Shown: in pieces, positions 1 through 18,005 of the stretch
Layout: every line of letters starts with the position of its first letter
Numbering within the stretch: the stretch's first letter is position 1
Source: Thiomicrorhabdus arctica DSM 13458
Lineage (GTDB): Bacteria > Pseudomonadota > Gammaproteobacteria > Thiomicrospirales > Thiomicrospiraceae
Length of the DNA stretch: 64,000 nt
NCBI RefSeq assembly: GCF_000381085.1
Contig: NZ_KB905899.1
Location: forward strand, 1,054,001 to 1,118,000
Direction: 5' to 3'
Notes under the pieces: model-generated
What the model was told of the DNA's origin: nothing
The model's database searches: none
What the model saw: only the letters and a program-made list of their open reading frames with translations
Translations under genes and position numbers: made by a program

Positions 1-624
1 CCAAAACGCACAAATGAGCCTTGGTTTCATGAGAGTCTAGGGCATTCCATACAAATTATAGCTTGGGGATTTTTCTGGGCGATGTTGTTTGGCTTACCCT
101 TAGGTATTATGGCTGGCACCTATGATTCGGCTTCGCGTTTAATTGAACCCTTTACAGACTTCTTCCGTTATTTACCAGCACCCGCTTTTGGCGCTTTAGC
201 GGTCGCAATTTTAGGGATCTATGATGCGCCGAAAATCGCCATTATCTTCATTGGTACTTTTTTTCAAATGGTTCTCATTACCGCCAATACAACTCGTACG
301 TTAAATATGGCCTTTATAGAGGCTTCTCTGACATTAGGCTGTAAAGGTCTTTCTTTGATTCGTAGAGTAATTCTACCAGGCATTATGCCTGACCTGCTTC
401 GCGATATGCGCATTCTGCTCGGTTGGGCGTGGACCTATTTAATTGTCGCTGAACTGGTTGGAACAAGCTCAGGAATCACTTGGTTTATTACTCAACAAGC
501 ACGCTATAAAAACTTTGATAATGTTTTTGCAGCCATTTTAATTATTGGCTTGATTGGAGTGACCACCGATATGATTTTAGCTAAATTGGGTAAACGTCTG
601 TTTCCTTGGAAAGATGGCCAATAA
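1..624 (+). CDS. ABC transporter permease, guanidine/urea-type uptake (5' partial)
   Basis: The frame is open from base 1, so the gene begins upstream of the window and 207 codons are visible. It is a membrane permease subunit of the nitrate/sulfonate/taurine class of importers, with several hydrophobic helices. A recognisable EAA loop for contact with the ATPase spans EASLTLGCKGLSLIRRVILP and the following GIMPDLL. It stops 12 bases before the ATPase start, so the two form one transporter. The location ahead of the carboxylase genes suggests guanidine or urea uptake; the substrate is inferred from context only. Confidence 0.88.
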   Translation, partial: PKRTNEPWFHESLGHSIQIIAWGFFWAMLFGLPLGIMAGTYDSASRLIEPFTDFFRYLPAPAFGALAVAILGIYDAPKIAIIFIGTFFQMVLITANTTRTLNMAFIEASLTLGCKGLSLIRRVILPGIMPDLLRDMRILLGWAWTYLIVAELVGTSSGITWFITQQARYKNFDNVFAAILIIGLIGVTTDMILAKLGKRLFPWKDGQ

Positions 625-636
625 GGAGTGACAAAT

Positions 637-1566
637 ATGACGAATAAAACACAAGTAGAGCAACAATCCCACCCTTTAAATTCTTGGCAAACAGCAGAGA
701 TTCAAGATCGAAATGAACGCATTTTAAAGCGTCCTAAGACTTTAGAAGTGAAGGGGCTGGATAAATCATTTGAACATAAAGGTAAAACTAACAAGGTTTT
801 AAATAAGATTGATTTTACCGCTTATAAACGTGAATTTATCTGTGTCGTTGGTCCTTCTGGTTGTGGCAAATCGACTTTAGCGAGACTGATTGCAGGACTG
901 GAAACGCAAGAAGCTGGCCACATATTGGTAGATGGTAAACATGTTACGGAACCCGGTCCAGATCGAGGCATGGTGTTTCAGAGCTACTCTCTGTTTCCTT
1001 GGATGTCAGTCAAACACAATGTTATGTTTGGCTTAACCCAGTCAGGCATGTCCAGAAATTCCGCTGAATCCGAAGCCTTTCAATGGATCGATTTAGTCGG
1101 TTTAACACCATTTTTAGATGCTTATCCGCATCAACTTTCGGGCGGAATGAAACAGCGTGTTGCAATTATTCGTGCCTTAGCCAATCAGCCTAAAATCTTG
1201 TTAATGGATGAACCCTTCGCGGCTTTAGACCCTCAAAATAGACTTAAAATGCAGCAGTATCTTCTTGAGATTTGGCAGAACATTGATATTACTGTTTTCT
1301 TTATTACCCACGATTTAGATGAAGCTATTTATCTCGCAGACCGCATCTTAGTGTTAGATGCTAACCCAGGACAGGTGAGAGAGGTACTCAATGTACCTCT
1401 ACCGAGGCCGCGCGCAGAAGATACCTTATTAAGTCCCGCCTTTATGGCAACCAAAGATTATTTAGAAACTCTGGTACACCCTCCACAACCAGAACTCGAT
1501 TTCGAAGAAAAGCTTAGCATGGTACGCCTCGTATCGGTTAATGCCCAAGTACCGGATATATTTTAA
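637..1566 (+). CDS. ABC transporter ATP-binding protein, guanidine/urea-type uptake
   Basis: This is the nucleotide-binding subunit that powers the permease encoded just upstream. Visible motifs are Walker A GPSGCGKST (about residues 72-80), the Q-loop in MVFQSYSLFPW, the signature LSGGMKQR, Walker B ILLMDEPFAALD and the switch histidine in FFITHDLDEA. I chose the ATG at 637 because AAGGAG (623-628) lies 8 bases before it; an in-frame GTG at 628 overlaps that ribosome-binding site. The product is 309 residues, with about 35 residues ahead of the ABC domain. Its stop overlaps the next start (TAATG). Confidence 0.93.
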   Translation: MTNKTQVEQQSHPLNSWQTAEIQDRNERILKRPKTLEVKGLDKSFEHKGKTNKVLNKIDFTAYKREFICVVGPSGCGKSTLARLIAGLETQEAGHILVDGKHVTEPGPDRGMVFQSYSLFPWMSVKHNVMFGLTQSGMSRNSAESEAFQWIDLVGLTPFLDAYPHQLSGGMKQRVAIIRALANQPKILLMDEPFAALDPQNRLKMQQYLLEIWQNIDITVFFITHDLDEAIYLADRILVLDANPGQVREVLNVPLPRPRAEDTLLSPAFMATKDYLETLVHPPQPELDFEEKLSMVRLVSVNAQVPDIF

Positions 1567-2045
1567 TGACTCAAAATGCCAAAACCAATCATACCTTAGT
1601 GCGAACCAGCGCCTCACTGCCAGCTAAAGTCTTAGAAGATTTAGACCAACTGGTCATTAAACGGGGCTTTAATAACCGCTCTGCGCTACTTGCTGAAATG
1701 ATTCAAAAAGAAGTCTCTTCTTATCGCCAAGAGTTCACCAATGAAATCATGGCGGGCACACTGACCATGGTATATGACCACTCTGTACCTGGACTACAAC
1801 TCAAATTGAATCATTTAAAACACCTGCATGTTGCTGAAATCATCTCATCCACGCAAAGTCAGTTGATGGAACAACAGACGCTTGAGGTCATACTGATGCA
1901 AGGTGGAGCTCAAGATTTAAATAGAATCAGTCAAGATATGCTCTCTCATCGCGGGGTCAAAACAGGCAATCTCTATCTCACCCACTCAGCGCTTCCTGCT
2001 ATTTATACCCCAGTATCCAGTTCAAAAAAGGAGAAGTCATTATGA
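1566..2045 (+). CDS. NikR-like ribbon-helix-helix regulator lacking the nickel site
   Basis: The N-terminal 50 residues fit a ribbon-helix-helix DNA-binding domain (RTSASLPAKVLEDLDQLV, then NRSALLAEMIQKEV), and the rest fits the ACT-like sensor domain of NikR (VYDHSVPGLQ, LEVILMQG, HRGVKTGNLYL). In E. coli NikR the nickel ligands include HxH and a cysteine in the segment before LEIAVLKG. The aligned segment here reads SSTQSQLMEQQT, without the histidines or cysteine. The protein therefore probably senses something other than nickel. It is coupled by 1- and 4-base overlaps to its neighbours, so it is likely the local regulator. Candidate operators lie at 12674-12701 and 16554-16581. Confidence 0.8.
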   Translation: MTQNAKTNHTLVRTSASLPAKVLEDLDQLVIKRGFNNRSALLAEMIQKEVSSYRQEFTNEIMAGTLTMVYDHSVPGLQLKLNHLKHLHVAEIISSTQSQLMEQQTLEVILMQGGAQDLNRISQDMLSHRGVKTGNLYLTHSALPAIYTPVSSSKKEKSL

Positions 2046-2809
2046 CTGAACACCATTCAAAGCGCTCTTTAGAAATTATTCCGCCAACTGACTTCATCTG
2101 GTCTGAAAGACTTCCTGGCGGTGCGCATTGGTCCGGCGTGATTCGTCGTGGCACGGTATTGCGCCTAACCGATTTAGAAGGCGGTTGTAATGTAGCGATG
2201 TTGTTGAACAATCTGGAAGTGAAAAACGAGCGTTACAACATGCCAGATACTCTTAAAGCGCAAAAAACTGCATTTTTAACCAAACCCAATATGTGTTTTA
2301 CAGATATGGGAAGGGTTGTCTGTTCCATAATTGAAGATAGCTGTGGCTGGCATGACACACTTGGCGGTTTATCCAATGCTTCAATGCTACAAAAAAAATA
2401 CGGTGAGAAAACCTATCAAGAAGCCCAAGATGACTACTATAAAAACGGCTATGACAGCTTAATCAATGAACTCGGAAAATGGGGTTTAAATGCCAGTGAC
2501 ATGATGCCAAACATCAATTGGTTCAGTAAAGTACGAGTGGAAAATGACGGCAGCATGACGTTTATAGCAGGCAATTCCAAAGCGGGGAATTATGTTGATT
2601 TGCGCTTTGAAATGGACGCGATTGTTTGTCTATCGACCGCACAACATCCGCTTGATCCTAACCCTGAATATGCACCTAAACCCATTGAGATGAGAGTTGT
2701 CAAAGCACAGCCTGTAAAAACCGATGATGCCAGTCGATTGTACCGTGCCGAAAACGAACGCGCTTATTACAACACCAAAATTTTCTACGGAGAGAATCCT
2801 GATGCCTAA
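2042..2809 (+). CDS. Urea carboxylase-associated protein 1 (carboxyguanidine deiminase subunit)
   Basis: The 255-residue protein matches the first urea-carboxylase-associated family: [43 protein letters not shown] and the conserved [10 protein letters not shown]. Members of this pair were long of unknown role; they are now known as the two subunits of carboxyguanidine deiminase (CgdAB), which converts carboxyguanidine to allophanate and ammonia. Which subunit name applies is not decided here. The ATG overlaps the regulator's TGA, and the gene overlaps the next by 8 bases, as expected for subunits of one complex. Confidence 0.85.
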
Positions 2810-3458
2810 CCCTATAAAAAAGCCAAGATTTGATGAAAGCCGGATTGCCTATCGTGAAGTGGTTGAGGCAGGCACACCTTGGATGCATGAAGTTAAAGCT
2901 GGGCAATACTTTCGTATTGTCGATTTAGAAGGCAACCAAGCCGTTGATACCCTTTTTTATAATGCTCATAACCACTCTGAACGTTATTCAGCGACCGATA
3001 CCATTCGCGAGCAGGGCAATATCTACCTGACGACAGGTTCCGTATTGCGTTCAAATTTAGTGAAGCCAATGCTCACTATTGTGGATGACACTTGTGGTCG
3101 CCATGACACCATTGGTGGGGCTTGTTCGGCAGAGAGTAACACGGTGCGTTATGCCATTGAAAAACGTCACATGCACTCCTGCAGGGACTCTTTTTTAACC
3201 GCTTTAGGAGAGTGTGATTGTTATTCTCAAAAAGCGATGACCAAAAGCGATCTTTCCAGCAATATCAATTTTTTTATGAATGTACCTGTCTCACCTGAAG
3301 GTCATCTTGATTTTGATGATGGTATCTCAGCTCCGGGTCGTTATGTCGAGATGTTAGCGCACATGGATACTTTAGTCCTAGTCTCTAACTGCCCACAACT
3401 CAACAATCCGTGCAATGGTTACAACCCAACCCCAGTAGAGATGGTAATTTGGGAATAA
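2802..3458 (+). CDS. Urea carboxylase-associated protein 2 (carboxyguanidine deiminase subunit)
   Basis: This is the second member of the pair, 218 residues, with family hallmarks [50 protein letters not shown] and [21 protein letters not shown] chose the ATG at 2802 because it follows the purine-rich ACGGAGAG and the conserved region starts soon after; the open frame extends further upstream inside the previous gene without a reason to use it. It is a paralog of the upstream protein (shared DLEG, TCGxHDT and NINxF segments), which supports a heteromeric enzyme. A 139-base gap separates it from the carboxylase. Confidence 0.85.
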
Positions 3459-3597: not shown

Positions 3598-6500
3598 ATG
3601 TTTAAAAAAGTACTTATTGCCAACCGCGGTGCAATTGCCACCCGTATTATTCGCACTTTAAAAGAGATGAACATCACCTCTGTTGTTTTGGCGTCAGATG
3701 CCGATCGTGCATCATTGCATGTACAACAGGCGGATGAAGTCATTTTCTTAGAGGGTAATGTTGCAACTGAAACCTATTTAAATGTGCCGCTTATTCTTGA
3801 AAAAGCGCGCGAACTGGGTGTTGAAGCGGTTCATCCTGGCTATGGTTTTCTTAGTGAAAATGACGGTTTTGCAGAAAGTTGTGAAGCGTTAGGCATACGT
3901 TTTATAGGGCCCGCGCCACACCATATTCGTGATTTTGGTTTAAAGCATACCGCTCGCGATTTAGCCATTGAAGCTAAAGTCCCCCTACTTCCAGGTTCTG
4001 GTTTGCTCGATTCCATAGAACATGCTCTGTCTGAAGCTTTGCGTATCGGTTATCCAGTGATGCTAAAAAGTACCGCGGGCGGCGGTGGTATTGGCATGCA
4101 AAAATGTGATACCGCTCAAGATTTAGAAGATGCCTTTGAGCAAGTCAAACGCCTGAGCCAGAACTCATTTGGTCAAGCGGGTATTTTTGTGGAAAAATTT
4201 GTGGTCAATGCACGTCATATCGAAATTCAGATTTTCGGTGATGGTTTAGGCGATGTGGTCTCTTTTGGAGAACGTGATTGCTCTTTACAGCGTCGTAACC
4301 AAAAAGTCGTGGAAGAAACGCCTGCTATCGGAATCGATCGCCAACAAGTTGCTGAGATGGAAGCGCATGCAGTACGTTTGGGTAAATTGGTCAAATACCG
4401 ATCTGCGGGTACGGTTGAGTATGTTTATGACACCGATGTAAATCAATATTACTTTTTAGAAGTGAATACACGTCTCCAAGTTGAACACGGCATTACCGAA
4501 GCGGTACGCGGTGTAGACCTGGTTGAGTGGATGGTAAAAGTGGCTTATGAAGCCAAACTACCTGGCCTGGTCAAACCTGCACAAGGTCATGCGATTGAAG
4601 TTCGTGTCTATGCCGAAGACCCGTTTAAAAACTTTCTACCAAGCTCTGGTAAATTAACGGGTTGGCAGATGCCAAAGAACTGTCGTGTCGATACCTGGTG
4701 CTCTCGCGGCCAAGAGGTCAGCTCTTTTTATGACCCTATGTTGGCCAAAATCATTGTCACCGGCAAAGATCGAACCGAAGCGGTTAACAACCTGCAACAA
4801 GCCATGCACGAAACCCGTATTGATGGTTTCGAAACCAATATTTCTTATTTAGGTGCGCTCAGTGAATCGGCTGAGTTTATTGACGGTCATAACCTTTACA
4901 CCCAATTTCTCAACCGCTTTACATATGCTCCTTTTTCAGTTGAAGTCACCAATGCGGGTACTCATTCCATGCTGGTGAGTTATCCTGGTCGTGTCGGTTT
5001 TTGGGATATTGGTGTACCACCTTCTGGGCCAATGGATGCGCTTTCACACCGTTTGGCCAACCGTTGCTTAAACAACCCGCTAGAAGCCGCAACCATTGAA
5101 ATGACGGTTTCGGGCGTCAGCCTGAATTTTGACCGTGATACCGTTATTTGTATCACCGGTGCGGATATTCAACCGACGTTGGATAAGCAACCCATTCCTT
5201 TAAATCAGGCGGTCACTGTTAAAGCCGGCCAACAGCTTAAATCCAAAGTCATTAAAGACCTTGGACAACGCGCTTATTTAGCGGTGTTAGGTGGTTTTGA
5301 TGTGCCAGATTATATGGGCAGTAAAACCACCTTTTCACTGGGTAAATTTGGGGGACATGGAGGGCGTCTATTACGCACTGGCGATGTATTGCATCTTGAT
5401 AAAAACTTGTCTGACGCTATTTTTACACAGAATCTACCTCAGAATCTTCTACCAAAAATCAGTAATCACGTTGAAATAGCCGTCATTTATGGCCCACAAG
5501 GCGCACCTGATTTTTTCACCGCTGAAGGCATTGAAAGCTTTTTTTCAACCGACTGGGAAGTGCACTATAACTCAAGTCGTACCGGCATCCGTTTAATTGG
5601 TCCGAAACCTTTATGGGCACGTGATTCTGGGGGCGAAGCAGGCTTGCATCCTTCCAATATTCACGACAATCCCTATGCGATTGGTGCCATCGATTTCACG
5701 GGGGATATGCCGGTTATCTTAGCGCAAGATGGGCCAAGCCTAGGCGGATTCGTCTGCCCTGCGACCATTATCGAAGCCGAACAATGGAAGATGGGACAAT
5801 TGCGTCCTGGCGATAAAATTCGTTTTAAAGCCGTCTCTACTGAAACCGCTGAAGCGGCTTTAAAGGCTTACGAGAATTCACTTGAAACATTAGATGCAAG
5901 CCTTTTAAAACCCTTGGTGTTTTTAGATTCGCCAACCGAACAATCTTGTTTAGCCCATGAAATTTCGTCAAAAGACCATGAGTTCGGTGTGAAATATCGT
6001 CGTTCAGGTGACAGTCACGTCCTTATTGAATATGGCGCGATGGAACTTGATTTAGCATTACGCTTCCGTATTCAAGTCTTGATTGAACGCTTGAAATTAC
6101 TTAAAAGTGATAATGACCAGGCCTGGTCATTCCTCAGAGATTTAACGCCGGGGATTCGCTCTCTACAAGTACACTATAATCCTCGACAGATTTCACAAGC
6201 CGACATCATTAAAAAGCTGGTTGCATTAGAAACAGAGATTTCTTCTGCCAAAGATTTAACGGTTAAGAGTCGCATTGTACGCTTACCATTGTCGTGGGAT
6301 GATTCCAGCACCAAGTTGGCGATTGAAAAATACATGCAATCGGTGCGTCCTGATGCGCCCTGGTGCCCAAGTAATATTGACTTTATCCGCCGTATCAACG
6401 GTTTGGACTCAATTGAAGAGGTCAAGAAAATTGTCTTCGATGCCAGCTATTTGGTATTGGGGCTGGGCGATGTTTACCTAGGTGCGCCAGTGTCCACACC

Positions 6501-7227
6501 ACTCGATCCTCGTCACCGTTTAGTCACCACAAAATACAACCCGGCACGTACTTGGACTCCTGAAAATGCCGTAGGCATTGGCGGCGCGTATATGTGTGTT
6601 TACGGTATGGAAGGCCCTGGTGGTTATCAATTTGTAGGGCGCACCATTCAAATGTGGAACCCTTATCACACCACGCCATTCTTCCCAGAAGGCAAACCTT
6701 GGTTGCTAGAATTCTTTGACCAAATACAATATTACCCAGTCAGTGAAGCCGAACTCGCCCAAGCCAGACTAGATTTCCCGCTGGGACGTTACGATATTTC
6801 TATTGAAGAAACCACTTTGTCTTTAAGCAAGTACCAGGCTTTTTTATCTGAAGAATCTGACAGTATTCAAGCCTTCAAAACCACACAACAAGCCGCATTT
6901 GAAGCCGAACGTTTGGATTGGGAAGCCACAGGACAAGCTAATTTTGAAACCACGTCTGCGCAAGACGAAGTGCAAAATGAGCCAATGGCCGAAATTCCAG
7001 AAGGGTTTGTCGCCATCCTTTCCCCAATTACCGGGAGTGTCTGGCAAATCACTGTCAAACCAGGTGATCTAATAAAGGAAGGTGACATCATTGCCATTTT
7101 AGAAACCATGAAAATTGAGATTCCTGTGGAAGCCGAATTTGACGGCATCATTACTGAAATTTTGGTGAATAAAAAAGACCTCATTCAAAATGGTCAAGCC
7201 CTGCTGGTGATGGAGGTAAGTGAATAA
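3598..7227 (+). CDS. Biotin-dependent urea/guanidine carboxylase
   Basis: This 1209-residue single-chain enzyme has, in order, a biotin carboxylase domain (about 1-450; KSTAGGGGIGMQ ATP loop, EVNTRLQVEH), an AHS2-type then an AHS1-type carboxyltransferase domain, and a C-terminal biotinyl domain with the acceptor lysine in ETMKIE (Lys1172). It carboxylates urea or guanidine with ATP and bicarbonate. Enzymes encoded beside the two associated proteins prefer guanidine, so guanidine carboxylase is the better name; this rests on context, not on a residue I could verify. The start is supported by AAGGAAATAG 6 bases upstream. The stop overlaps the hydrolase start. Confidence 0.93.
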   Translation: MFKKVLIANRGAIATRIIRTLKEMNITSVVLASDADRASLHVQQADEVIFLEGNVATETYLNVPLILEKARELGVEAVHPGYGFLSENDGFAESCEALGIRFIGPAPHHIRDFGLKHTARDLAIEAKVPLLPGSGLLDSIEHALSEALRIGYPVMLKSTAGGGGIGMQKCDTAQDLEDAFEQVKRLSQNSFGQAGIFVEKFVVNARHIEIQIFGDGLGDVVSFGERDCSLQRRNQKVVEETPAIGIDRQQVAEMEAHAVRLGKLVKYRSAGTVEYVYDTDVNQYYFLEVNTRLQVEHGITEAVRGVDLVEWMVKVAYEAKLPGLVKPAQGHAIEVRVYAEDPFKNFLPSSGKLTGWQMPKNCRVDTWCSRGQEVSSFYDPMLAKIIVTGKDRTEAVNNLQQAMHETRIDGFETNISYLGALSESAEFIDGHNLYTQFLNRFTYAPFSVEVTNAGTHSMLVSYPGRVGFWDIGVPPSGPMDALSHRLANRCLNNPLEAATIEMTVSGVSLNFDRDTVICITGADIQPTLDKQPIPLNQAVTVKAGQQLKSKVIKDLGQRAYLAVLGGFDVPDYMGSKTTFSLGKFGGHGGRLLRTGDVLHLDKNLSDAIFTQNLPQNLLPKISNHVEIAVIYGPQGAPDFFTAEGIESFFSTDWEVHYNSSRTGIRLIGPKPLWARDSGGEAGLHPSNIHDNPYAIGAIDFTGDMPVILAQDGPSLGGFVCPATIIEAEQWKMGQLRPGDKIRFKAVSTETAEAALKAYENSLETLDASLLKPLVFLDSPTEQSCLAHEISSKDHEFGVKYRRSGDSHVLIEYGAMELDLALRFRIQVLIERLKLLKSDNDQAWSFLRDLTPGIRSLQVHYNPRQISQADIIKKLVALETEISSAKDLTVKSRIVRLPLSWDDSSTKLAIEKYMQSVRPDAPWCPSNIDFIRRINGLDSIEEVKKIVFDASYLVLGLGDVYLGAPVSTPLDPRHRLVTTKYNPARTWTPENAVGIGGAYMCVYGMEGPGGYQFVGRTIQMWNPYHTTPFFPEGKPWLLEFFDQIQYYPVSEAELAQARLDFPLGRYDISIEETTLSLSKYQAFLSEESDSIQAFKTTQQAAFEAERLDWEATGQANFETTSAQDEVQNEPMAEIPEGFVAILSPITGSVWQITVKPGDLIKEGDIIAILETMKIEIPVEAEFDGIITEILVNKKDLIQNGQALLVMEVSE
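6112..6131. repeat. Highly iterated palindrome, copy 2 (in coding sequence)
   Basis: A perfect 20-base palindrome around the core, inside the carboxylase gene. It is read as Asp-Gln-Ala-Trp-Ser (GAC CAG GCC TGG TCA). Confidence 0.92.
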
Positions 7228-9023
7228 TGGACTTACGACTTCCACAACTTAAAGCAGCCTATGCCTCGGGAGAATTGACGCCTAGAAAAGTCATTTCGCA
7301 CATAAAACAAGCCGCTGAAAACTATGATGATCACAATATTTTCATCCATGTTTTAAGTGATACTGAATTAGAACCTTACTTGGCAGCACTTGAGAAAACT
7401 GAGCGCAATAATTTGCCTCTATGGGGTATTCCGTATGTCATTAAAGACAATATCGACCTAATCGGCATTCCAACCACCGCTGGCTGTCCTGAATATGCCT
7501 ATACTCCGACAGAATCGGCCACAGTGGTTCGCTTGCTAATTGAAGCCGGTGCGATCCCGATTGGAAAAGCCAATATGGATCAGTTTGCAACAGGCTTGGT
7601 CGGCACTCGCTCTCCTTATGGTGTCTGTCATAACTCATTCGATTTTGACATGATTTCAGGCGGCTCTAGTTCAGGCTCGGCAGTGTCTTTAGCGCTAAAC
7701 CTATGCAGCTTTTCTTTAGGCACCGATACAGCAGGTTCCGGACGAGTACCGGCCGCCTTTAATAATTTAATTGGCCTTAAACCTTCTAAAGGCTTATTGA
7801 GCACTTCAGGTGTCGTACCAGCGGTTCGCTCTCAAGATGTCATCAGCATTTTCGCGCTCAATGCCCAGGATGCTTACCAGGTGTTTGATGTGGCCGCTCA
7901 AGTGGACGCGAGAGATGAATACAGTCGCGATGAAAACGCCTTAATGCCACCCGCTTGGGGTGCAAAACCTATTTTAGGCATACCTGATGAGACCAGCCTT
8001 TTTTTTAATGACGATAAAAAGGCTGAAATAAGCTTTTTCGCCACAATCCATCAACTTAAACAGATGGGCTATGAGATCAAAGAGATCCCTTTTAAACGGT
8101 GGTTAGACACAGCTAAGCTGCTTTATGGCGGTGCCTGGGTTGCCGAACGCTATGTCGCAATCGAAGACTTTTTGAATAGACATGAAGACAAAATAGATCC
8201 CACAGTGCGCACGATTATTGCTGGGGCACGAAGCCTCAGTGCCGCAGATGCTTATAAAGGTTCATATGCCCTGCAGAAGGCCCAAAGTGAAACCCAAGAC
8301 CTCTGGCAGAGTGTCGATTGCATGATAACACCGACCACTCCGAGTATTTTCAGCCAAGCCCAACTTGAAAAAGACCCGATTGGATTTAATTCTATTTTAG
8401 GCACCTACACCAATTTCATGAACCTTCTTGACTACGCCGCTCTCGCCCTGCCAACCGGTTTTAGAAAAGATGACTTACCCACAGGCATCACGCTATTTGC
8501 ACCCGCAGGCAGTGACCGCCAATTGTTACAACTTGCCGATCAATTGCAGGGCGAATTTAATAGCTGTGCTGGCGCTAAAAATACGCCTGTCCCGACTCAT
8601 CAACCAGCCCTGTTTGAAAATAAACATTCTATTTCTTTAGCGGTGGTGGGGGCACATTTGATCGGTTTCCCATTGAACAAACAATTGGTTGAACGCGGTG
8701 CAAAACTGCTCAAAACCACAAAGACAGCGGCTAAATACAACTTTTATGAACTGCTAGGCGGGCCAATTCTGAAACCAGGCCTGGTTAAAACCACTGAAGG
8801 CGGTCAGCCGATTGAAGTTGAAGTCTGGACGATGCCTAAACAACATTTAGGGTCGTTCCTGGCGTTGATCCCCTCACCTTTAGGGTTAGGTAAGGTAGAG
8901 TTGATTGATGGTTCACAAGTCGTCGGTTTTATCTGCGAACCTTGGGGACTGAAAGGCGCAACAGATATTTCTCATACAGGTGGTTGGCGTAACTGGATGG
9001 CCGAGCGACCTGCTACTGAGTAA
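7227..9023 (+). CDS. atzF: Allophanate hydrolase
   Basis: This 598-residue amidase-signature enzyme hydrolyses allophanate to ammonia and carbon dioxide, the last step of the pathway. The Ser-cisSer-Lys triad is visible: Lys73 in VIKDNIDL, the SGGSSSGSA stretch with cis-Ser about 147, and nucleophile Ser171 in GTDTAGSGR. About 150 C-terminal residues (from around AVVGAHLIGFPLN) form the extra domain found in AtzF-type enzymes but not in simple amidases. Its ATG overlaps the carboxylase stop (TAATG), so it is translationally coupled, and a strong terminator follows. Confidence 0.94.
   Translation: MDLRLPQLKAAYASGELTPRKVISHIKQAAENYDDHNIFIHVLSDTELEPYLAALEKTERNNLPLWGIPYVIKDNIDLIGIPTTAGCPEYAYTPTESATVVRLLIEAGAIPIGKANMDQFATGLVGTRSPYGVCHNSFDFDMISGGSSSGSAVSLALNLCSFSLGTDTAGSGRVPAAFNNLIGLKPSKGLLSTSGVVPAVRSQDVISIFALNAQDAYQVFDVAAQVDARDEYSRDENALMPPAWGAKPILGIPDETSLFFNDDKKAEISFFATIHQLKQMGYEIKEIPFKRWLDTAKLLYGGAWVAERYVAIEDFLNRHEDKIDPTVRTIIAGARSLSAADAYKGSYALQKAQSETQDLWQSVDCMITPTTPSIFSQAQLEKDPIGFNSILGTYTNFMNLLDYAALALPTGFRKDDLPTGITLFAPAGSDRQLLQLADQLQGEFNSCAGAKNTPVPTHQPALFENKHSISLAVVGAHLIGFPLNKQLVERGAKLLKTTKTAAKYNFYELLGGPILKPGLVKTTEGGQPIEVEVWTMPKQHLGSFLALIPSPLGLGKVELIDGSQVVGFICEPWGLKGATDISHTGGWRNWMAERPATE
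8773..8786. repeat. Highly iterated palindrome, copy 3 (in coding sequence)
   Basis: A perfect 14-base dyad inside atzF, flanked by a complementary A/T pair. It is read as Pro-Gly-Leu-Val. Confidence 0.9.
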
Positions 9024-9267: not shown

Positions 9268-10629
9268 TTAAAACAGGTTACTGTAACGTTTGATTTCCCA
9301 AGCAGAAACTGTTTGATGATAATCATTCCACTCTGCTCTTTTATATTTAATAAACTCATCACTGAGTCCTTTCCCGAGTACTTTCTCAACAAACGGATCA
9401 TCTGCGAACGCTTGCACGGCATCATTAAGATTTTGTGGTAAAAACTCAATACCACGTGCAGTACGCTCTGCTTCTGTTAAGTCATACAGGTTATCTTCTT
9501 GTGCTTTCCCTGGATCTAGCTTTTCACGAATCCCTTCTAGCCCAGCCGCCAACACTAAGGTAGCCGCCAGATATGGATTGACGGCTCCATCGGCATTACG
9601 GTTTTCAAAACGGCCGCCGCCCAGAGGAATACGTACGGAATTGGTACGGTTGTTTGAACCAAATGAGTTGAAGACTGGCGCCCATGAAAAGGTCGCCATA
9701 TCACCCTGTCTGACCAAACGTTTGTAACTGTTTACCGTTGGCGAGAAGACCGCACATAAAGCAGGACCGTGCTTTAATACACCCGCGATAAAGTGATAAC
9801 CAATCTCGGTCAATCCTAAACCACGTGGATCGTCTTTAGGATCATACTCAAAAAGATTCTCTTTGCTCTCTAAATCAAACAACGACATATTAAAATGCGC
9901 GCCATTGCCTGTTTTATCGGCAAACGGTTTAGGCATCATAGTCGCTAAAAGACCCTCTTCAGCCGCATAGTGTTTGGCCATATAACGAAAGAAAATAAAA
10001 CGGTCACACATGGTCAATGCATCACTGTATTTGAAATCGAACTCATACTGACCGTTGGCATCTTCGTGATCTAAAGAGTAGAGATCCCAGCCTAAATCAT
10101 CAATGGTGGTTGCCATTTTATCAATCCAGGTAAAACGATTCATAAAGCTACTCACGTCATAACAAGGCTTCGTTAGATTGTCATTTTTATCTGGAATCGA
10201 TAAAGAACCATCGGCCTCTTCTTTTACAACGAATAATTCACACTCAATACCTAAGTTAAATCCAAAGCCCATTTCCGCAGCTTCTGCCAATACCTTTTTC
10301 AAAGCCACACGCGTATTGATGTCATAGGGTTCACCATGCAGGGTATTGTCAGCCGCCATCCAAGCAACTTCAGGTTGCCAAGGCAGTTGGATTAAGCTGT
10401 TTAAGTCTGGCACAGAGGCAATTTCATCTTCATTAGGCTTTTGGCCGAGTCCATCAACGGCATAGCCTGTATAGAGTTCGGACCCTTTAACCATCTGAGG
10501 GAAATGATCGATTGGTACAAATTTACCTTTAGGAATACCATGTATATCAACATAAGCGCCTAGACAATACTTGACTCCTTTTGCTTTCAAATCTGCTTGT
10601 ACTTCTTTTATATTAAATTGACTGTTCAT
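9268..10629 (-). CDS. glnT: Type III glutamine synthetase family ligase (GlnT-like)
   Basis: This 453-residue member of the glutamine synthetase superfamily matches the GlnT group, which includes gamma-glutamylmethylamide synthetases. Metal and ATP site motifs are visible: [51 protein letters not shown], and [21 protein letters not shown] with [13 protein letters not shown]. It joins glutamate to ammonia or a small amine. Encoded right after the creatininase-family gene (9-base gap) and facing the guanidine operon, it may recapture the nitrogen released there. Ammonia versus an alkylamine cannot be decided from sequence by eye. Confidence 0.85.
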
Positions 10630-10638
10630 AATAACGTC

Positions 10639-11418
10639 CTACTTTCCATTACTTGATTGGGTGTGTTTAAAATAACTTTCTGCTAATGGCGCTGTTTCTT
10701 GTAGCCCCTTGATGACTAAATTGGACAAGTCTTCAACCATCCAATCAAAGAGCATTTGACCTTTATCAACCGTGGCTAAACTAGGCTTTCCTGTCACACC
10801 ATTTAGACTGGTGCGATTAACAGGGTGCGAAAATACACAGTCTTCCGTTCTATCAGGATCATCGCTGTCTAATAAACGATCCTCTCTGACAAGGTCTGGT
10901 GCAACCGCCATCATCAATGAGGTTTCTGCCTCATTAGCATGCCAATCGAAAGCATCTTCAAAATGTCGTTCTTTCACGCGATCACTTACCGTGGCTGAAT
11001 TAATAATAGCGACCATAAATCCATCATGCTCTGCCCTCAACATCTCGAGGGCACAACGTAAAGGTGCAAAGTTAGAAACATGGCTATTTAAAATAAACAG
11101 ACGCTTAAAGCCCGATGCATGCACCCAATCGCCAATTTCTTTAACCACATCAATTAGAGTTTTAGGCTGTAAAGCAATCGTTCCAGGCCAACGCTTGGAA
11201 TGTCCGATTGAACAACCGTAAGGTAAGGTAGGTAACAAGGCAATCTGAGTGTTTTCAGAGACTTGTAAACTGAGTCGTTCAGCAATTTCTGAATCCATTC
11301 CACAGCCTAAATGTGGGCCGTGTTGCTCGGTTGCGCCTACTGGTAATAAGGCGGCATCCATGCCTGATTCAGTCAGTTGACCGATTTCTTCCCATGTCAT
11401 TTGATGCCATAGGTTCAT
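10639..11418 (-). CDS. Creatininase-family amidohydrolase
   Basis: A 259-residue member of the creatininase (creatinine amidohydrolase) family, binuclear metal hydrolases acting on cyclic or linear amide bonds. Likely ligands are in GATEQHGPHL (Glu, His), GCGMDSEI (Asp), LNSHVSNFAPL (His) and HANEAETS (Glu). The usual GHGGN box is altered to SHVSN. I chose the ATG at 11418, which follows GGGGAGA closely; the open frame continues 15 codons upstream without a ribosome-binding site. Linked to glnT. The true substrate is unknown; a guanidino-type compound is suggested by the neighbourhood only. Confidence 0.8.
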   Translation of the reverse strand: MNLWHQMTWEEIGQLTESGMDAALLPVGATEQHGPHLGCGMDSEIAERLSLQVSENTQIALLPTLPYGCSIGHSKRWPGTIALQPKTLIDVVKEIGDWVHASGFKRLFILNSHVSNFAPLRCALEMLRAEHDGFMVAIINSATVSDRVKERHFEDAFDWHANEAETSLMMAVAPDLVREDRLLDSDDPDRTEDCVFSHPVNRTSLNGVTGKPSLATVDKGQMLFDWMVEDLSNLVIKGLQETAPLAESYFKHTQSSNGK

Positions 11419-11578
11419 ATTTTTCTCCCCGCTCATTTTGTCCGAGCAATAAAAAAGGTACACCCATCCGAATCTCCATAAAAAAGAAGTGATAGGAAGG
11501 TGAACATTATTTGTGGGGTTAATAGGAGTAAGCCATTATGAGATTCATAACAGCTGGATTAAAAAGTGATTTAAGGGG

Positions 11579-11609
11579 ATGTAAAGCAAATAGAAGACTT
11601 ACTTTACAT
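11579..11609. repeat. Inverted repeat ATGTAAAG-N15-CTTTACAT
   Basis: Two 8-base perfect arms separated by 15 bases, in the 252-base gap between the solute-binding-protein gene and the creatininase-family gene. There is no U-run on either side. It could be an operator for the creatininase-glnT pair or a weak hairpin at the end of the upstream transcript. Confidence 0.5.
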
Positions 11610-11670
11610 TCCTAATTTTAAGCTTATTTTTAAAAATCTTATTTCATCAATCTGATCTTAAAACTTGACG

Positions 11671-12648
11671 TTATAGGCCAAGCGTTAATGAAGGATCAAT
11701 ATAAGAGTCAATATCAAGTGGCTTGTCATACACTTTATTGGCGACGTTAAAGTCATCAGAAAGCTTTGATGAACCATAAATGGAGTCAAAACCTGGCCCT
11801 TTTTTATAGAGCGATTTTGCTTCTTCTAACGTTAATATTTTGGTTCCTTTTATGAATGATTTATACACTTCTGGCGACAGTCCTACACGAGAAGCCATAA
11901 TCGCAACAGCATCGTCTGTTGTTTTTGGATCTTTAATATAATCAACCACTTTGTACCAAACTTTTGCAACCTTCTCCCATTCTGCGCGTTTTGAAGCATA
12001 GCTACTTGGCGAAACCGCTAGCATGTCATAAATTAAACCTGGCTCATCCGCACTAGTATAAATTTTTGAAGAACCTGGGACTAACTCTAAAGCAGAACCA
12101 GAACTTGGCTGCCAAGCCACAATCGCATCAACTTGTCCCGAAGCCAAGACTTGCGGTGTTTCATTAGTTGGTACATTGACCAGTGTCACGTCTGACTCTG
12201 TCATGCCATTCTTCTCAAGTGCATTTAACAATAATAGATGGCTCACAAATCCGATTTCTACACCGACTTTCTTTCCTTTTAGGGCTTTAATAGAATCAAT
12301 ACCCGGTGCGCCAATCACCATATCATTACCATTACTATAGTCATTCATAATAACCATAACACTTTGTGCGCCTGTTGCTCCAGTAACCAATGCATCACCA
12401 TTAGTCATGCCGACTGCATCAAGTTGACCTGCCGCGAAAGCATCCATAGAAGCCACGTAATCAAACCATTCAAACTTAACGTCAACGCCTGCTTCGGCAA
12501 ACCATTTTTTTTCAACAGCAACCTCCCAAGCAACCCATCCTGGCCAGTCACTGTAACCAATTTTTAAAGGCTCAGCACTAACAGAAAAGGCCTGTCCAGA
12601 AAGAACTAAACCAACAAAAACACCTAATATTTTTCTACGAGAGATCAT
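11671..12648 (-). CDS. ABC transporter solute-binding protein of the urea-carboxylase type
   Basis: A 325-residue periplasmic binding protein of the NMT1/SsuA-like fold. The first 25 residues are a signal peptide ([20 protein letters not shown], cleavage near VSAEP). [37 protein letters not shown] and MNDYSNGND recall the binding proteins found in urea-carboxylase regions. It should deliver guanidine or a relative to the permease/ATPase at 1-1566, although it is transcribed separately and convergently. A candidate NikR-type operator lies 27 bases before the start. A second binding protein may exist upstream of the window. Confidence 0.87.
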
Positions 12649-12673
12649 TATTACACCACCTTAGCTACTTAAG

Positions 12674-12701
12674 TTATTACGAATTAAATTATTAGTAATA
12701 A
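12674..12701. promoter_or_regulatory. Candidate operator of the NikR-like regulator, site 1
   Basis: Half-sites TATTA and TAATA in a 6-N16-6 arrangement (TATTAC at 12675-12680, GTAATA at 12695-12700). The geometry equals that of the E. coli nik operator (GTATGA-N16-TCATAC), and the left part TATTACGAAT is also similar. It matches site 2 (16554-16581) at 22 of 26 core positions. It lies 27 bases upstream of the solute-binding-protein start, where binding would block transcription. Confidence 0.6.
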
Positions 12702-12839
12702 AGAAAAAGCATATAACAAACCAACTATAAATTTAGCCTATTTAACAAATAGTTATATCAAAATAACACTATTACTACCCTTAAAATCTGCTAGATAACG
12801 CACTTTAATAGAACTCCTAAGATTTAAATGGTGCAATTC

Positions 12840-13694
12840 TTAAGAAGAACGCCTCGCTTCAATAAATGCTGCAATCAAAATCAAACCGCCACCTAACATC
12901 TCAATTGGCAACATGGTTTCACCCAAAATCAAACTTGCCGAGACAATGGCTGTAACTAACTCCATAATTAAAATAATAGATGACCTACCCACTTCAAGAT
13001 GTGTGACGGCCCATTGCGTTCCAAAATTAGCAAACATCATCCAAACTGCACCATATAAAAATAGCATCCCCCAAGCAGAAGCACTCACATTAAAGACTGG
13101 TGGTTCAGCCTGAAACAAGAGAATGGTGGCCGCCAAAATAACAGATCCCAGAAACATAAAGGTTATCTTAAGCCGAATGGAGACCGCTTGAGAGACCCTA
13201 AAGACAATATTATTCATAGCAAAAAGAAAGCCCGAAAGCAGTGCCAAACCATCTATCCAAGAGGGTGGCTCAAGAAAGGCATTCATACCTCCGACGATTA
13301 AAAAGACACCCGATATGGCTAAGCCAACTCCTAGCCACCGGCCTTTATCAATATTCTCACCTAAAAATAGTCGCCCCCCTAATACGCCCCAAATCGGCAC
13401 CAGATAAAACAACACCATGACTCGAATGACTTCACCATAAATGAGCGCGGTATTAAACGCCAACTGCGCGCCCCCGCCTAACAGAGCAACTCCAAGCAGG
13501 ACCTTCCAATGCGGTTTAATCTGACCCCTCTTAGCCCAGAGCCAAGGCAACATCAAACCAAACATGATTAGATAGAGAAACAGCGTTAGCTCTATGCCAT
13601 CAAACCCTTGTTGATTTAAATATTTAAGCGGTAGCCAACTCAAACCCCATAGAACAGAAGCCGCAAATAAAACGACAACAGCATAAGATTGCAT
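12840..13694 (-). CDS. EamA/DMT-family membrane transporter
   Basis: A 284-residue protein with about ten hydrophobic helices in two repeats, typical of drug/metabolite transporters (EamA): SVLWGLSWLPLKY in the first helix and TQWAVTHLEVGRSSIILIME in the second half. Such proteins usually export small polar metabolites or amino acids. It is the last gene of the desaturase-MBL-isomerase set (58-base gap), so it may move their substrate or product. The ligand cannot be read from sequence. Confidence 0.82.
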   Translation of the reverse strand: MQSYAVVVLFAASVLWGLSWLPLKYLNQQGFDGIELTLFLYLIMFGLMLPWLWAKRGQIKPHWKVLLGVALLGGGAQLAFNTALIYGEVIRVMVLFYLVPIWGVLGGRLFLGENIDKGRWLGVGLAISGVFLIVGGMNAFLEPPSWIDGLALLSGFLFAMNNIVFRVSQAVSIRLKITFMFLGSVILAATILLFQAEPPVFNVSASAWGMLFLYGAVWMMFANFGTQWAVTHLEVGRSSIILIMELVTAIVSASLILGETMLPIEMLGGGLILIAAFIEARRSS

Positions 13695-13752
13695 TATAAA
13701 ACACCCTTAAAATATAAGAAAAACCAGAGAGAAGATTGGAGGTTTTACCTCC

Positions 13753-14601
13753 CTATTTGTACTGCTTAGAAAACTGTTTGAAGTGTTCGGATTCGGTTAA
13801 CCTCATCCACTGATTAATCTCCCAAATATCTACGACGGGCGCTTGCGTAAAAGGCAATTTATGACAATACCCATCAGGTCCAAACTCAGGCGTTAAGGTC
13901 GTAAAATCATAGCCACTTTCTACCTGTGCTTGCCAAAACATCTCCCAGATTACTTGATGTGATCTTAAAGCCTCAGAATACTCAGGGGTGGCGGGATGAG
14001 GTACTTGCGGGCCTTGGTCATAACCAACTCGACCATGAATATGATGAATATTGCCTGCGATAGCTTGCATAGTCTCGATTTCGGAATCCATCAATCTTTC
14101 ACAAACCACGCACCAATGACTAATGTCCACCGTCAGTTTTATATTTGGAATAGCCTCCACAACCCTCCTGGTTACCCAAGGGTTAAATAAACTACGACTG
14201 CGATGGGTTTCAAAACTTATTACAATATTGCTTTCATCTGCCAATTTCATCGCTTGCTGAAAGAACTCAATTGATTGAGTTTCTGACCAAGCATCAACCC
14301 CCGTAATCGCCGTTGCAAACAAAGGCTTCAATAATAAAGCGTTTTCTAGTTGCTCGGCTAAGTCATCTAAATGCTGTTGCAAACTCCATTGACGGTTAGG
14401 TACAAAATCCCCGCCCGTGACAACTTCTGCGATATACGAACAATGATTCTGCTCTAGCGCATCTTGCCATAACAATCGTTCATCTTGCGTTACAGGAGCT
14501 TGCCCCTCAATACCATCAAAGTGAGCTAAATGTGCTTGCTGACAAGCTTCGTGAATCGTTAGGGCATTGCCCCAGAGTGTTTTGAACGTTTGTAAATGCA
14601 T
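13753..14601 (-). CDS. Xylose-isomerase-like TIM-barrel protein
   Basis: A 282-residue protein of the sugar phosphate isomerase/epimerase (AP endonuclease 2) family. Candidate metal residues are spread along the barrel strands: Glu in YIAEVVTGGDF, ISFETHRSRS, KLTVDISHWCVV, HIHGRVGYDQGPQVPHP and TLTPEFGPDGY. Family members isomerise or epimerise keto sugars and related small molecules using a divalent metal. It begins 5 bases after the MBL gene stops, so the two are co-translated. No specific substrate is recognised. Confidence 0.78.
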   Translation of the reverse strand: MHLQTFKTLWGNALTIHEACQQAHLAHFDGIEGQAPVTQDERLLWQDALEQNHCSYIAEVVTGGDFVPNRQWSLQQHLDDLAEQLENALLLKPLFATAITGVDAWSETQSIEFFQQAMKLADESNIVISFETHRSRSLFNPWVTRRVVEAIPNIKLTVDISHWCVVCERLMDSEIETMQAIAGNIHHIHGRVGYDQGPQVPHPATPEYSEALRSHQVIWEMFWQAQVESGYDFTTLTPEFGPDGYCHKLPFTQAPVVDIWEINQWMRLTESEHFKQFSKQYK

Positions 14602-14606
14602 AAGAA

Positions 14607-15389
14607 TTACTCAAAATAGCCAGGAAAGACGTTATGTTTTTGGAAAAAAGCCCAATCGTGATTTGGCCAAAGCTGCACTTGTGCCTGTTTGCTGATTGTT
14701 TTTAACTTGCGAATACTCTCAACAGCCATCAAATCATTGTCTTGCCAACACAGTCCTGGCGCAATTTCATCGTTAATATTTTCCATTAAATCCGCTGCAT
14801 CCCCCGCAAGCAAGATGGGTTTACCCTTAGGAAGTTCAACTAACATAGACATATGACCTGCGGTATGTCCTGGAGTTTCAATGGCACTTATCTCTGGTGC
14901 TAAATCGTACTCTCCGGTCTGTAACGTCCAGTTCAAAGGTAAGTCAAAGTCAGAGGCAAAATAGGCTTCATCAGCCGACTCCTTAGCCGCTTGCATCTCG
15001 AGCGTATGCACATGCACTTCTGCATGACAAAACTCACATAATCCACCTGCATGATCAAAATGCAGGTGGCTGCAAAATACCACATCCACATCTTCAGTTT
15101 TCAGACCCAGTGCTTGTAATCGATTAGGCAGCCGTTCTTCTTCACTCATCTCTGGTGGCCCAAATGGAAAGCCTTCATGCTCATAATACAATTCACGCTG
15201 TTTAGGCTGGCTGATTTTTTGATAATCACAGCCAACATCAAATAAGACTCGACCCTGCGAGGTTTCAATTAAATAGGCCAGAATAGGTGCTTTTATGATT
15301 TCACCCTGACCACGACCTCGGGTCGAGAGTGTTTTCTCATAGGTATGTCGACCTGTTAAGATTGGCCAAAATTTTTTAACTTGAGTCAT
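14607..15389 (-). CDS. Metallo-beta-lactamase-fold hydrolase (N-acyl homoserine lactonase-like)
   Basis: A 260-residue MBL-fold hydrolase with the zinc motif HLHFDHAGG, a later His in ETPGHTAGHMSML, Asp in LLAGDAADL and a terminal His in LWPNHDWAFF. Length and motif order fit the AttM/AiiA lactonase group, which opens lactone rings. Quorum quenching is one possibility. Its place between a desaturase and a TIM-barrel isomerase suggests instead a metabolic lactonase in a small pathway, which is inference. It has no signal peptide, so it is cytoplasmic. Confidence 0.8.
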   Translation of the reverse strand: MTQVKKFWPILTGRHTYEKTLSTRGRGQGEIIKAPILAYLIETSQGRVLFDVGCDYQKISQPKQRELYYEHEGFPFGPPEMSEEERLPNRLQALGLKTEDVDVVFCSHLHFDHAGGLCEFCHAEVHVHTLEMQAAKESADEAYFASDFDLPLNWTLQTGEYDLAPEISAIETPGHTAGHMSMLVELPKGKPILLAGDAADLMENINDEIAPGLCWQDNDLMAVESIRKLKTISKQAQVQLWPNHDWAFFQKHNVFPGYFE

Positions 15390-15408
15390 CTAGTAAGCCT
15401 CTGCAACT

Positions 15409-16422
15409 TTAGTGGGCGGTTAAAAAAGAGACACCATCCACCCCAATAAAGGTCTCTCCCTCATTGTCTTTAACACGTAAATTGACTGGGTCGCCATTCA
15501 AAACCCGAGGGATACGGTAACGGTGAAAACTCTTAATTAGGTGCTTAAAGGTTAAAACCTGTTGCTCATCAGAACCATACTTTTGAGCATGTAATTTGGG
15601 CAGTCGATACCAGGGCTGTAACTGGTGACTATGATGGATATTGTGATAACAAAAATTCAATACTAAAAGGTTCAACCATGGATACTCTATAGACAGCAGA
15701 TTCGAATAGGTATTATGTGCTTCGAATTCGGCATCTCTTAACCTCGCCTCGGGCCCACGTTTTTGATCAAGGGTTTCAAATACGTCATAGGTATGTTGAT
15801 GCACATCCATAAAACGCATCACCGTTAAAAACAACAAATAAGCCAACGGATAGAGCCAAAGTACATCTATAGAAATTGAAGCTAACACCCAAAAGAAAGC
15901 CACTCTCAAGATCAATACAAGCACGATTCGTGGCCGACGTTTTTTACGACTGGATTTTATAAACGGTAAGATAATTACCAGTGTGTGCATCACTATTTCT
16001 AAAGCGGGAATATAGACCCACTCAAGCCCCTTTAACAACGTTAAAAAGTGTGGATGTTTTGCAAGGTGAGGACGAAAATCAAAAGAGACAATGTCTGCGC
16101 GATCAGAATGGTGGCGATTATGTTTATGTGAGATATCATCAAAATTAGAATAGCTGGACCCCGTTATCCATAAAAGAATCTCTCCCAACCACTGATTATG
16201 TTTTTTGTGCCTAAACAGACTTTGATGTGCAACCTCGTGGATTAAATAGGCGGCAATCACCATCGCATGTCCCAACCAAACAATACCTAATAGATTCAGC
16301 CAAACAGCCCCACTTAAAATCAGTCCAAAACCAGCAAAATACCCTACAATCACATAGAGGAAAGCCCATACATTGGGCCACAAGGCATCGTCATAACGAA
16401 ATAGCGAGTTCTCTTTAGACAT
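15409..16422 (-). CDS. Membrane di-iron fatty acid desaturase/hydroxylase family protein
   Basis: A 337-residue membrane enzyme with the three histidine boxes of the desaturase superfamily: HEVAHQ (HX3H), HKHNRHH (HX2HH) and HNIHHSH, separated by paired hydrophobic helices. The family uses a di-iron centre and oxygen to desaturate or hydroxylate lipids or other small molecules. I chose the ATG at 16422, which follows AAGGA by 7 bases; the open frame extends 15 codons upstream. It leads a four-gene unit. Both a true lipid desaturase and a small-molecule hydroxylase remain possible. Confidence 0.82.
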   Translation of the reverse strand: MSKENSLFRYDDALWPNVWAFLYVIVGYFAGFGLILSGAVWLNLLGIVWLGHAMVIAAYLIHEVAHQSLFRHKKHNQWLGEILLWITGSSYSNFDDISHKHNRHHSDRADIVSFDFRPHLAKHPHFLTLLKGLEWVYIPALEIVMHTLVIILPFIKSSRKKRRPRIVLVLILRVAFFWVLASISIDVLWLYPLAYLLFLTVMRFMDVHQHTYDVFETLDQKRGPEARLRDAEFEAHNTYSNLLSIEYPWLNLLVLNFCYHNIHHSHQLQPWYRLPKLHAQKYGSDEQQVLTFKHLIKSFHRYRIPRVLNGDPVNLRVKDNEGETFIGVDGVSFLTAH

Positions 16423-16893
16423 GACACATTCCTTGTATAGCTCACAAAGCGCGTTTGCGGATAACATTCAATATCGAGGAAAAACAGTACACACCATCAG
16501 GCCAGGTTGCTTTGTAGAATCCGCGCTTAAAGACCTGAAAACAGGCTATTAAAATATTACGATTTAATTAATAAGTAATACTAAAGCATTTTACATACCA
16601 AGCTAAGAACCACTGTTTTTACAGGCTTAATCTCCTCATTAATGGTCATTAATTCATAAAATCGCACTTATTTGGTGCCTAAAAAGTTTGTAATGAGTCT
16701 TTGTAAATTGTCTAATGAGAGGGTCTGAATAAATTGCAAAAGCATCAATTCAAGGCTTGCTTAAAGATAAGAATTTTAGAAAAGTGAGAGCGATTTAATG
16801 AGGTACAGATAGGTATTAAGAACAGCTATTTTTTTACATGGTCTGGTCATGTTAAAAGACAAAAACTTCATTAATAGATTAAAGCGTTCATCA
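16423..16893. other. Intergenic region upstream of the desaturase unit
   Basis: This AT-rich 471-base stretch holds the second NikR-type operator candidate (16554-16581) and a decayed copy of the iterated palindrome (TCAGGCCAGG at 16498). I saw no gene-like frame, and I could not assign a promoter with confidence. Confidence 0.6.
16554..16581. promoter_or_regulatory. Candidate operator of the NikR-like regulator, site 2
   Basis: TATTAC (16555-16560) and GTAATA (16575-16580) separated by 14 bases, the same arrangement as site 1 and 22 of 26 bases identical to it. It lies 132 bases upstream of the desaturase start. The reverse strand reads GTATTA-N16-TAATAT, again the NikR half-site geometry. 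Confidence 0.6.
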
Positions 16894-17928: not shown

Positions 17929-18005
17929 TGGGGCGAGCGACGGGGATTGAACCCGCGACAACCGGAATCACAATCCGGGACTCTACCAACTGAGCTACGC
18001 CCGCC
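17929..18005 (-). tRNA. tRNA-His (GTG)
   Basis: A full cloverleaf on the minus strand with anticodon loop TTGTGAT and encoded CCA. The extra 5' G (base 18005) pairs with C73, giving the 8-bp acceptor stem unique to tRNA-His. It is the last gene of the Pro-Arg-His operon. Confidence 0.96.

Follow-up and report, generated by a model that had tools for sequence, protein, structure and literature searches.

A NikR-family protein with replaced nickel ligands and a shared predicted operator at the guanidine genes of Thiomicrorhabdus arctica

The locus described here belongs to Thiomicrorhabdus arctica DSM 13458 and lies in a stretch of 64,000 nucleotides (contig NZ_KB905899.1, positions 1,054,001 to 1,118,000), which was analysed at its full length and is called the window in the following. 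At its beginning the window enters an operon of guanidine degradation, in which the genes of an ATP-binding cassette (ABC) importer are followed by that of a NikR-like regulator and by those of the carboxyguanidine deiminase subunits CgdA and CgdB, a guanidine carboxylase and an allophanate hydrolase. Matches above cut-off to TIGR03425, TIGR03424 and TIGR02713 identify CgdA and CgdB (UAAP1/UAAP2) and the allophanate hydrolase. On the minus strand lie a solute-binding protein gene and several accessory genes, among them a unit for a desaturase, a metallo-beta-lactamase-fold (MBL) hydrolase, a TIM barrel protein and an EamA-type transporter (Table 1). Of particular interest is a 28-bp repeat containing TATTAC-N14-GTAATA, which precedes the operon, the solute-binding protein gene and the desaturase unit, and which is probably the operator of the regulator encoded within the operon.

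In the initial annotation two sites had been recognized as matching NikR-type operators with 22 of 26 bases in common, one assigned to the solute-binding protein gene and the other to the desaturase unit. Both were recovered at these positions and before these genes as exact copies of the motif; their 28-mers are identical in 22 of 28 bases, all of them within the inner 26, and the 6-N16-6 spacing given at that time describes this element with its outer boundaries shifted outward by one base. No further exact copy was found in the 64-kb window, and none in 100 dinucleotide shuffles of it. A third site, suggested before the carboxylase operon just outside the window, is present and exact, its 28 bp ending 52 bp upstream of the ATG of the permease, the first gene of the operon. 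A motif search of the whole genome (2.55 Mb) returned four exact sites. The fourth (C1:1530252-1530277, L123:5253-5278) lies about 20 bp upstream of an apparently unrelated open reading frame, which we take from its sequence to be AMP/thymidine phosphorylase-like, and no sigma-54-like element is obvious there by eye; it is probably a chance match, because the reversed pattern is itself matched 0 to 2 times in each family genome. If three mismatches are allowed, the motif no longer discriminates in the window (36 found, 31.8 expected), and claims at the genome level are therefore based on exact or one-mismatch sites.

Table 1. Genes and predicted regulatory elements of the guanidine locus; positions refer to the window unless a contig (C1) or a separate stretch (L030) is named.
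Feature	Position	Strand	Remarks
ABC permease, 3' end	1..624	+	first gene of operon, start outside window
ABC transporter ATPase	628..1566	+	
NikR-like regulator (RHH_1 + NikR_C)	1566..2045	+	ligand positions H76/H87/H89/C95 = H86/Q97/Q99/T105
CgdA-type carboxyguanidine deiminase subunit (DUF1989, UAAP1)	2042..2809	+	
CgdB-type carboxyguanidine deiminase subunit (DUF1989, UAAP2)	2724..3458	+	
Guanidine carboxylase	3598..7227	+	Asp699 at position of Asn1330 of K. lactis urea amidolyase
Allophanate hydrolase	7227..9023	+	
Type III glutamine synthetase-like protein	9268..10629	-	perhaps co-transcribed behind solute-binding protein; position only
Creatininase-family amidohydrolase	10639..11463	-	perhaps co-transcribed behind solute-binding protein; position only
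Solute-binding protein (NMT1/SsuA type) of ABC importer	11671..12648	-	
Operator of solute-binding protein gene	12674..12701	-	exact motif (12675-12700); 25 bp upstream of ATG (12648); kept before orthologues in relatives
Sigma-54-like -24/-12 element TGGTTTGTTATATGC	12709..12723	-	7 bp before solute-binding protein operator; score 7 of 11, weakest of three
EamA-type transporter	12840..13694	-	
Xylose-isomerase-like TIM barrel protein	13753..14601	-	
Metallo-beta-lactamase-fold hydrolase	14607..15389	-	nearest lactonases but under their cut-offs
Fatty-acid-desaturase-family membrane protein	15409..16467	-	
Operator of desaturase-MBL-TIM-barrel-EamA unit	16554..16581	-	exact motif (16555-16580); 86 bp upstream of desaturase ATG (16467)
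Sigma-54-like -24/-12 element TGGTATGTAAAATGC	16586..16600	-	4 bp before desaturase operator; score 8 of 11
Operator of carboxylase operon	C1:1053552-1053579 = L030:7552-7579, outside window		exact motif C1:1053553-1053578
Sigma-54-like element TGGTACACCAATTGC	outside window		0 bp before carboxylase-operon operator; score 10 of 11

Among 62 family genomes, a close homologue of the regulator was detected in 24, that of T. arctica included, and all 24 possess at least two exact sites, as opposed to three of the 38 regulator-negative genomes (G007, G028, G050); one of the G007 sites lies where a contig breaks off, next to the genes that in T. arctica flank the operon. The positive genomes together contain 58 exact sites (reversed control 21) and the negative ones 18 (reversed control 19), the control placing the chance level at about 0.5-0.9 exact matches per family genome. 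In the mapped stretches of relatives the sites precede the permease operon, the solute-binding protein gene, and the creatininase or desaturase unit. According to gene maps of the 24 regulator-positive genomes, the desaturase-MBL-TIM barrel-EamA genes stand behind the solute-binding protein and one shared site in 11, downstream of the allophanate hydrolase and co-oriented with it in four, and behind a site of their own in three (T. arctica, G051, G059), where the sites of G051 and G059 have one mismatch each and the unit of G059 is without a TIM barrel match; in G053, G055, G057 and G060 the stretch ends too early for placing these genes. Both sequence checks, the third site and the recurrence before the same genes in relatives with the regulator, support the earlier suggestion that the accessory genes are linked to the guanidine-operon regulator.

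Beyond the family, genomes were scanned with a 14-sequence alignment of the regulator, and the best 80 of 138 confirmed stretches were taken as named loci; with 11 loci of the window's family omitted, 69 (1.17 Mb; Proteobacteria, Verrucomicrobiota) form the non-family set. These loci contain 32 exact motifs with N14 spacing and none with N8-N13 or N15-N20. Since the flipped order GTAATAC-N14-GTATTAC also occurs (L145:4800, L167:7217, L202:9924, L211:9899, L182:9889), the half-site is a palindromic heptamer, GTAWTAC, and the operator in its general form GTAWTAC-N14-GTAWTAC; the AT-rich family of the window mostly displays TTATTAC-N14-GTAATAA. With at most one mismatch, the general motif was found 60 times at N14 compared with 0 or 1 per other spacing. 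Counted by locus, 56 of the 69 contain it at this level, three more at two mismatches and two more only at three (L162, L168; such matches also arise by chance, and that of L162 does not precede the mapped genes), and the remaining eight are site-less, the start of the cluster being absent from each stretch as judged by gene order. In 49 loci the solute-binding protein gene is read from the plus strand and 300 bp or more are available upstream; a site of the first form precedes it in 46 of these, about 14-55 bp from the start. L145 and L167 show the exact flipped form at this place, and L202 has a three-mismatch site there, its exact flipped site being located upstream of the regulator gene. 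Position and spacing are conserved also in loci with 60-69% G+C. In 30 other NikR_C loci (158 kb, L241 included) no site was found at up to one mismatch and two at two mismatches; three Cys-less NikR loci of a phylum sample have a site at one (L236) or two mismatches (L238, L239).

The named loci also bear on the identity of the pathway. The residue that discriminates between the substrates of the carboxylases is, as we assume, number 1330 of the K. lactis enzyme. Asp699 of our carboxylase aligns with N1330 of K. lactis urea amidolyase (5i8i), and Asp was found at this position in all 60 readable named loci (20 of 80 were not readable). Guanidine carboxylases have Asp and urea carboxylases Asn at the discriminating position, according to a review (PMC12186494).

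The own genome contains one rpoN and one ntrC match above the curated cut-off. Promoter elements were evaluated against the consensus sequences of sigma-54 and NtrC, the former scored as GG-N10-GC with TGGCAC/TTGC context up to a maximum of 11. As each own operator stands downstream of a sigma-54-like element, nitrogen control is probably part of the circuit. A score of at least 8 was reached before 32 of 50 oriented operators (43 from other family genomes, four from G187 and G144, three own), with a mean of 0.74 in Markov-resampled sequences, and before 52 of 59 operators of the named non-family loci, with a resampled mean of 1.88. By eye, eight of the 18 low-scoring operators of the first set retain TGG and deviate at the final base of the -12 pair; the seven of the second set are six sites before the regulator gene itself plus L190. 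An NtrC-like GCAC-N7-GTGC within 260 bp upstream was present in eight of 46 named loci, with 0 to 2 for other spacings of 3-11. In the Verrucomicrobiota L171, L182, L188, L191, L193 and L211 the regulator gene is immediately preceded by an operator that lacks a sigma-54 element. A general absence of the element from Verrucomicrobiota was considered and rejected, given that sites before the solute-binding protein carry it in L170, L182, L184 and L202.

The regulator is a ribbon-helix-helix (RHH) protein with a NikR_C domain, both above the Pfam cut-offs (RHH_1 25.6 bits, NikR_C 69.4 bits); it is the only NikR-like protein in the window, as had been noticed before, and the own genome has one NikR_C match. 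Its best match to a solved NikR is 2bj1 (E 2.3e-39 when searched with a 14-homologue profile), and it reaches none of the five listed NCBIfam NikR cut-offs (best 95.4 bits, cut-off 105). In an alignment with E. coli NikR that is ungapped through the metal site, His76, His87, His89 and Cys95 correspond to H86, Q97, Q99 and T105, i.e. three of four ligands are replaced. In E. coli numbering, nickel is bound by His87, His89 and Cys95 plus His76 from the neighbouring subunit (PMC7055735). The position of Cys95 is without Cys in all 80 named loci (T 60, M 18, V 1, S 1), and the ligand set is H-Q-Q-T in the window's family and R-H-L-T, Y-N-N-T or S-H-F-S in other lines. Canonical HHHC was kept in 25 of 30 NikR_C comparison loci (L212-L241); the five exceptions are the locus of the window itself, three loci of CgdB-containing genomes, and L241 (G424), whose protein shows N-L-C-R at the ligand positions and groups with canonical proteins, its branch being very long. 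A tree of 108 sequences places 77 guanidine-linked regulators on one side of a branch (Shimodaira-Hasegawa-like approximate likelihood ratio test, SH-aLRT, 99), whereby the tree was made by a quick method from few columns with long branches flagged, and seven of the 11 family loci were omitted as near copies. Judged by its sequence, the regulator is homologous to NikR but branches separately, and because three of the four nickel ligands are replaced it is not to be read as a nickel-responsive NikR.

Among relatives the regulator and guanidine riboswitches replace each other, though not strictly. Neither the window nor L030 with the operon leader contains a guanidine riboswitch, and Guanidine-I gave no match in the 62 family genomes; these searches used strict filters, by which weak matches may be lost, and were genome-wide for the Guanidine-I class. 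From 191 relatives, 34 have a CgdB homologue with at least 61% identity, 26 of them with the regulator (in G109 counted from a 63-residue fragment at a contig edge) and eight with Guanidine-I; G156, whose CgdB homologue reaches 34%, was dropped, and G040 has the regulator on a contig that ends before CgdB and hence stands outside the 34. A sample of 299 phylum genomes yielded 29 with CgdB at 47% or above, 25 of which have Guanidine-I and four a Cys-less NikR (in G215 about 8 kb from CgdB). A NikR_C protein also occurs in four of these 25 Guanidine-I genomes (G218, G235, G243, G287), with the HHHC set and thus canonical. Taking both samples together, 61 distinct genomes (two shared) contain a close CgdB homologue, 29 with the regulator, 32 with Guanidine-I, none with both and none with neither. 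A Fisher test of this distribution was computed without correction for the kinship of the genomes, and its value is not to be read as a probability.

The best explanation as a whole, which we hold to be likely though far from certain, is that this NikR-family protein binds the three operators, represses, and is released by guanidine or a close derivative. The regulator would bind the 28-bp operator at three promoters, controlling the ABC-regulator-CgdAB-guanidine carboxylase-allophanate hydrolase operon, the solute-binding protein gene with the creatininase and glutamine-synthetase-like genes, and the desaturase-MBL-TIM barrel-EamA unit. Nitrogen limitation, acting through sigma-54 with NtrC, would arm the promoters. 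As the operators start 0-7 bp downstream of the sigma-54-like element, the transcription start would lie beneath the bound protein, which would thereby repress: if the C of the GC pair is set as -12, the predicted coverage is -11 to +17 at the operon, -7 to +21 at the desaturase unit and -4 to +24 at the solute-binding protein gene, which suits repression. Guanidine or a close derivative would then release the regulator from its operators, and autoregulation is to be expected, because the regulator gene sits inside the operon. The complete nickel site would have been lost in the clade and, as is assumed, replaced by the response to an organic ligand. We infer the pairing of protein and operator as well as the repression; as to the ligand, guanidine seems the simplest candidate, because in L158 and L167, where Guanidine-II lies before the carboxylase, the operator occupies the place at the operon head that belongs to Guanidine-I in Vreelandella. 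In Vreelandella Guanidine-I heads the operon and Guanidine-II precedes the carboxylase (PMC12508155).

Several observations weigh against this explanation. Six of 21 scanned named loci carry a guanidine riboswitch plus the regulator (L146, L153, L158, L167, L179, L200), by which a strict mutual exclusion is weakened; in L146 and L153 Guanidine-I precedes the CgdAB-carboxylase unit and the operator the importer unit on the opposite strand, and in L158 and L167 Guanidine-II lies between CgdB and carboxylase with the operator at the operon head, the match in L167 being just at the gathering score (32.0 bits). Regulator and pathway mostly co-occur, and this co-occurrence therefore cannot separate the regulator from something else tied to the pathway. 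No element at score 8 was found at 18 of 50 and seven of 59 operators, among them the own solute-binding protein site (7) and six of seven sites directly before the regulator gene, all in Verrucomicrobiota. G040 and G047 have no site (up to one mismatch) before the desaturase in the stretches read. In many non-family loci two or three nickel histidines persist (19 HHHT and 17 YHHM of 80), and these could still bind metal. Finally, DNA binding without nickel and release by a ligand would invert the logic of canonical NikR, which binds DNA when nickel-loaded (PMC7055735, in part).

These retained histidines are also the starting point of the alternative that survives best, although we regard it as rather unlikely: regulator and operators would be the same, with a signal that is not guanidine itself, either another metal, bound by the histidines still present, or a metabolite of the pathway or of nitrogen metabolism such as carboxyguanidine, allophanate or methylguanidine. 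The accessory creatininase, desaturase and TIM-barrel genes, suggesting substituted guanidines as substrates, fit such a signal. Against it speak the diverging ligand sets (H-Q-Q-T, R-H-L-T, Y-N-N-T, S-H-F-S), which leave no metal site common to the clade, and the regulator's occupation of the place of guanidine riboswitches in relatives. Quite improbable is that the operators are real and belong to a different DNA-binding protein; the regulator gene, being part of the operon, would indeed co-occur with them anyway, but the motif resembles the delta-proteobacterial NikR signal, flipped form included (PMC545781, in part), and a site stands directly before the regulator gene in several verrucomicrobial loci, with no systematic search made for other regulator genes.

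An ordinary nickel-responsive NikR lying by chance within the guanidine operon appears slightly less credible still. Its RHH and NikR_C domains exceed the Pfam cut-offs and the 28-bp geometry of the operator is as described for NikR (PMC7055735, PMC545781), but the positions of H87, H89 and C95 are replaced, that of C95 throughout the 80 loci, and the protein stays below the five NCBIfam cut-offs and branches separately. Behind the sites stand importer, CgdAB, guanidine carboxylase, allophanate hydrolase and accessory genes instead of nickel transport or nickel enzymes, and a classical nickel regulon is rejected by ligand residues and gene content. No nickel requirement of the carboxylase route is known. 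Chance palindromes in AT-rich DNA can practically be dismissed: single exact matches do arise at the above rate and the fourth own site may be one, but position, spacing and conservation, also at 60-69% G+C, refute such an origin, as do the reversed, everted and spacing controls and the shuffles.

Creatininase, type III glutamine synthetase, desaturase, lactonase-like MBL, TIM barrel and EamA genes (9268-16467) are found near the guanidine regulon in many relatives, which hints at the uptake and breakdown of substituted guanidines or creatinine. Three tRNA genes lie on the minus strand at 17932-18275, about 1.5 kb beyond the desaturase gene.

If NikR-family protein and guanidine are connected as proposed, a metalloregulator has changed from a metal to a small organic cation, and the protein may be the first known protein switch responding to guanidine, a role so far given only to RNA switches. 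In a literature search, with most subscription papers and preprints outside its range, no title or abstract start among the matches listed reports a protein regulator, NikR-type or other, of guanidine genes; in the available portion of a 2009 survey including NikR (PMC2667541), urea carboxylase is named only for yeast. We consider it an evenly balanced question whether a widespread NikR clade swapped its nickel site for an organic-ligand response and became the first guanidine-sensing transcription factor, replacing Guanidine-I at operon heads in several proteobacterial lines and Verrucomicrobiota and joining guanidine with nitrogen status at sigma-54 promoters. With its defined operator the regulator offers a concrete candidate for testing, and the regulon opens a route to genes for substituted guanidines, namely the creatininase, desaturase, TIM barrel and MBL genes behind the operator.

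Compared with known systems, the locus combines features of several. It shares with NikR of E. coli, H. pylori and P. horikoshii the RHH plus NikR_C architecture and, as predicted here, an operator of two half-sites, 28 bp in length and thus within the 27-28 bp of NikR; it differs in three of four nickel ligands, in guanidine instead of nickel genes, in its own branch, and in the half-site (GTAWTAC here, GTATGA in NikR). With NtrC/sigma-54 promoters of nitrogen assimilation, as judged by their consensus, it has in common the -24/-12 elements, rpoN and ntrC in the genome and NtrC-like sites in eight of 46 loci, whereas here a pathway-specific predicted operator covers the expected start site. 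The delta-proteobacterial NikR signal GTGTTAC-N13/14-GTAACAC, predicted for nickel transport and hydrogenase genes (PMC545781), has the same 7-N14-7 layout, a similar half-site and both half-site orientations, the flipped order being reported for predicted NikR sites of Desulfotalea; the genes here are those of guanidine. Closest in gene content are the Guanidine-I/II riboswitch operons of Vreelandella boliviensis, which comprise the same genes for ABC importer, CgdAB, carboxylase and allophanate hydrolase (PMC12508155), but have an RNA sensor in the leader where T. arctica has a predicted DNA operator at the promoter.

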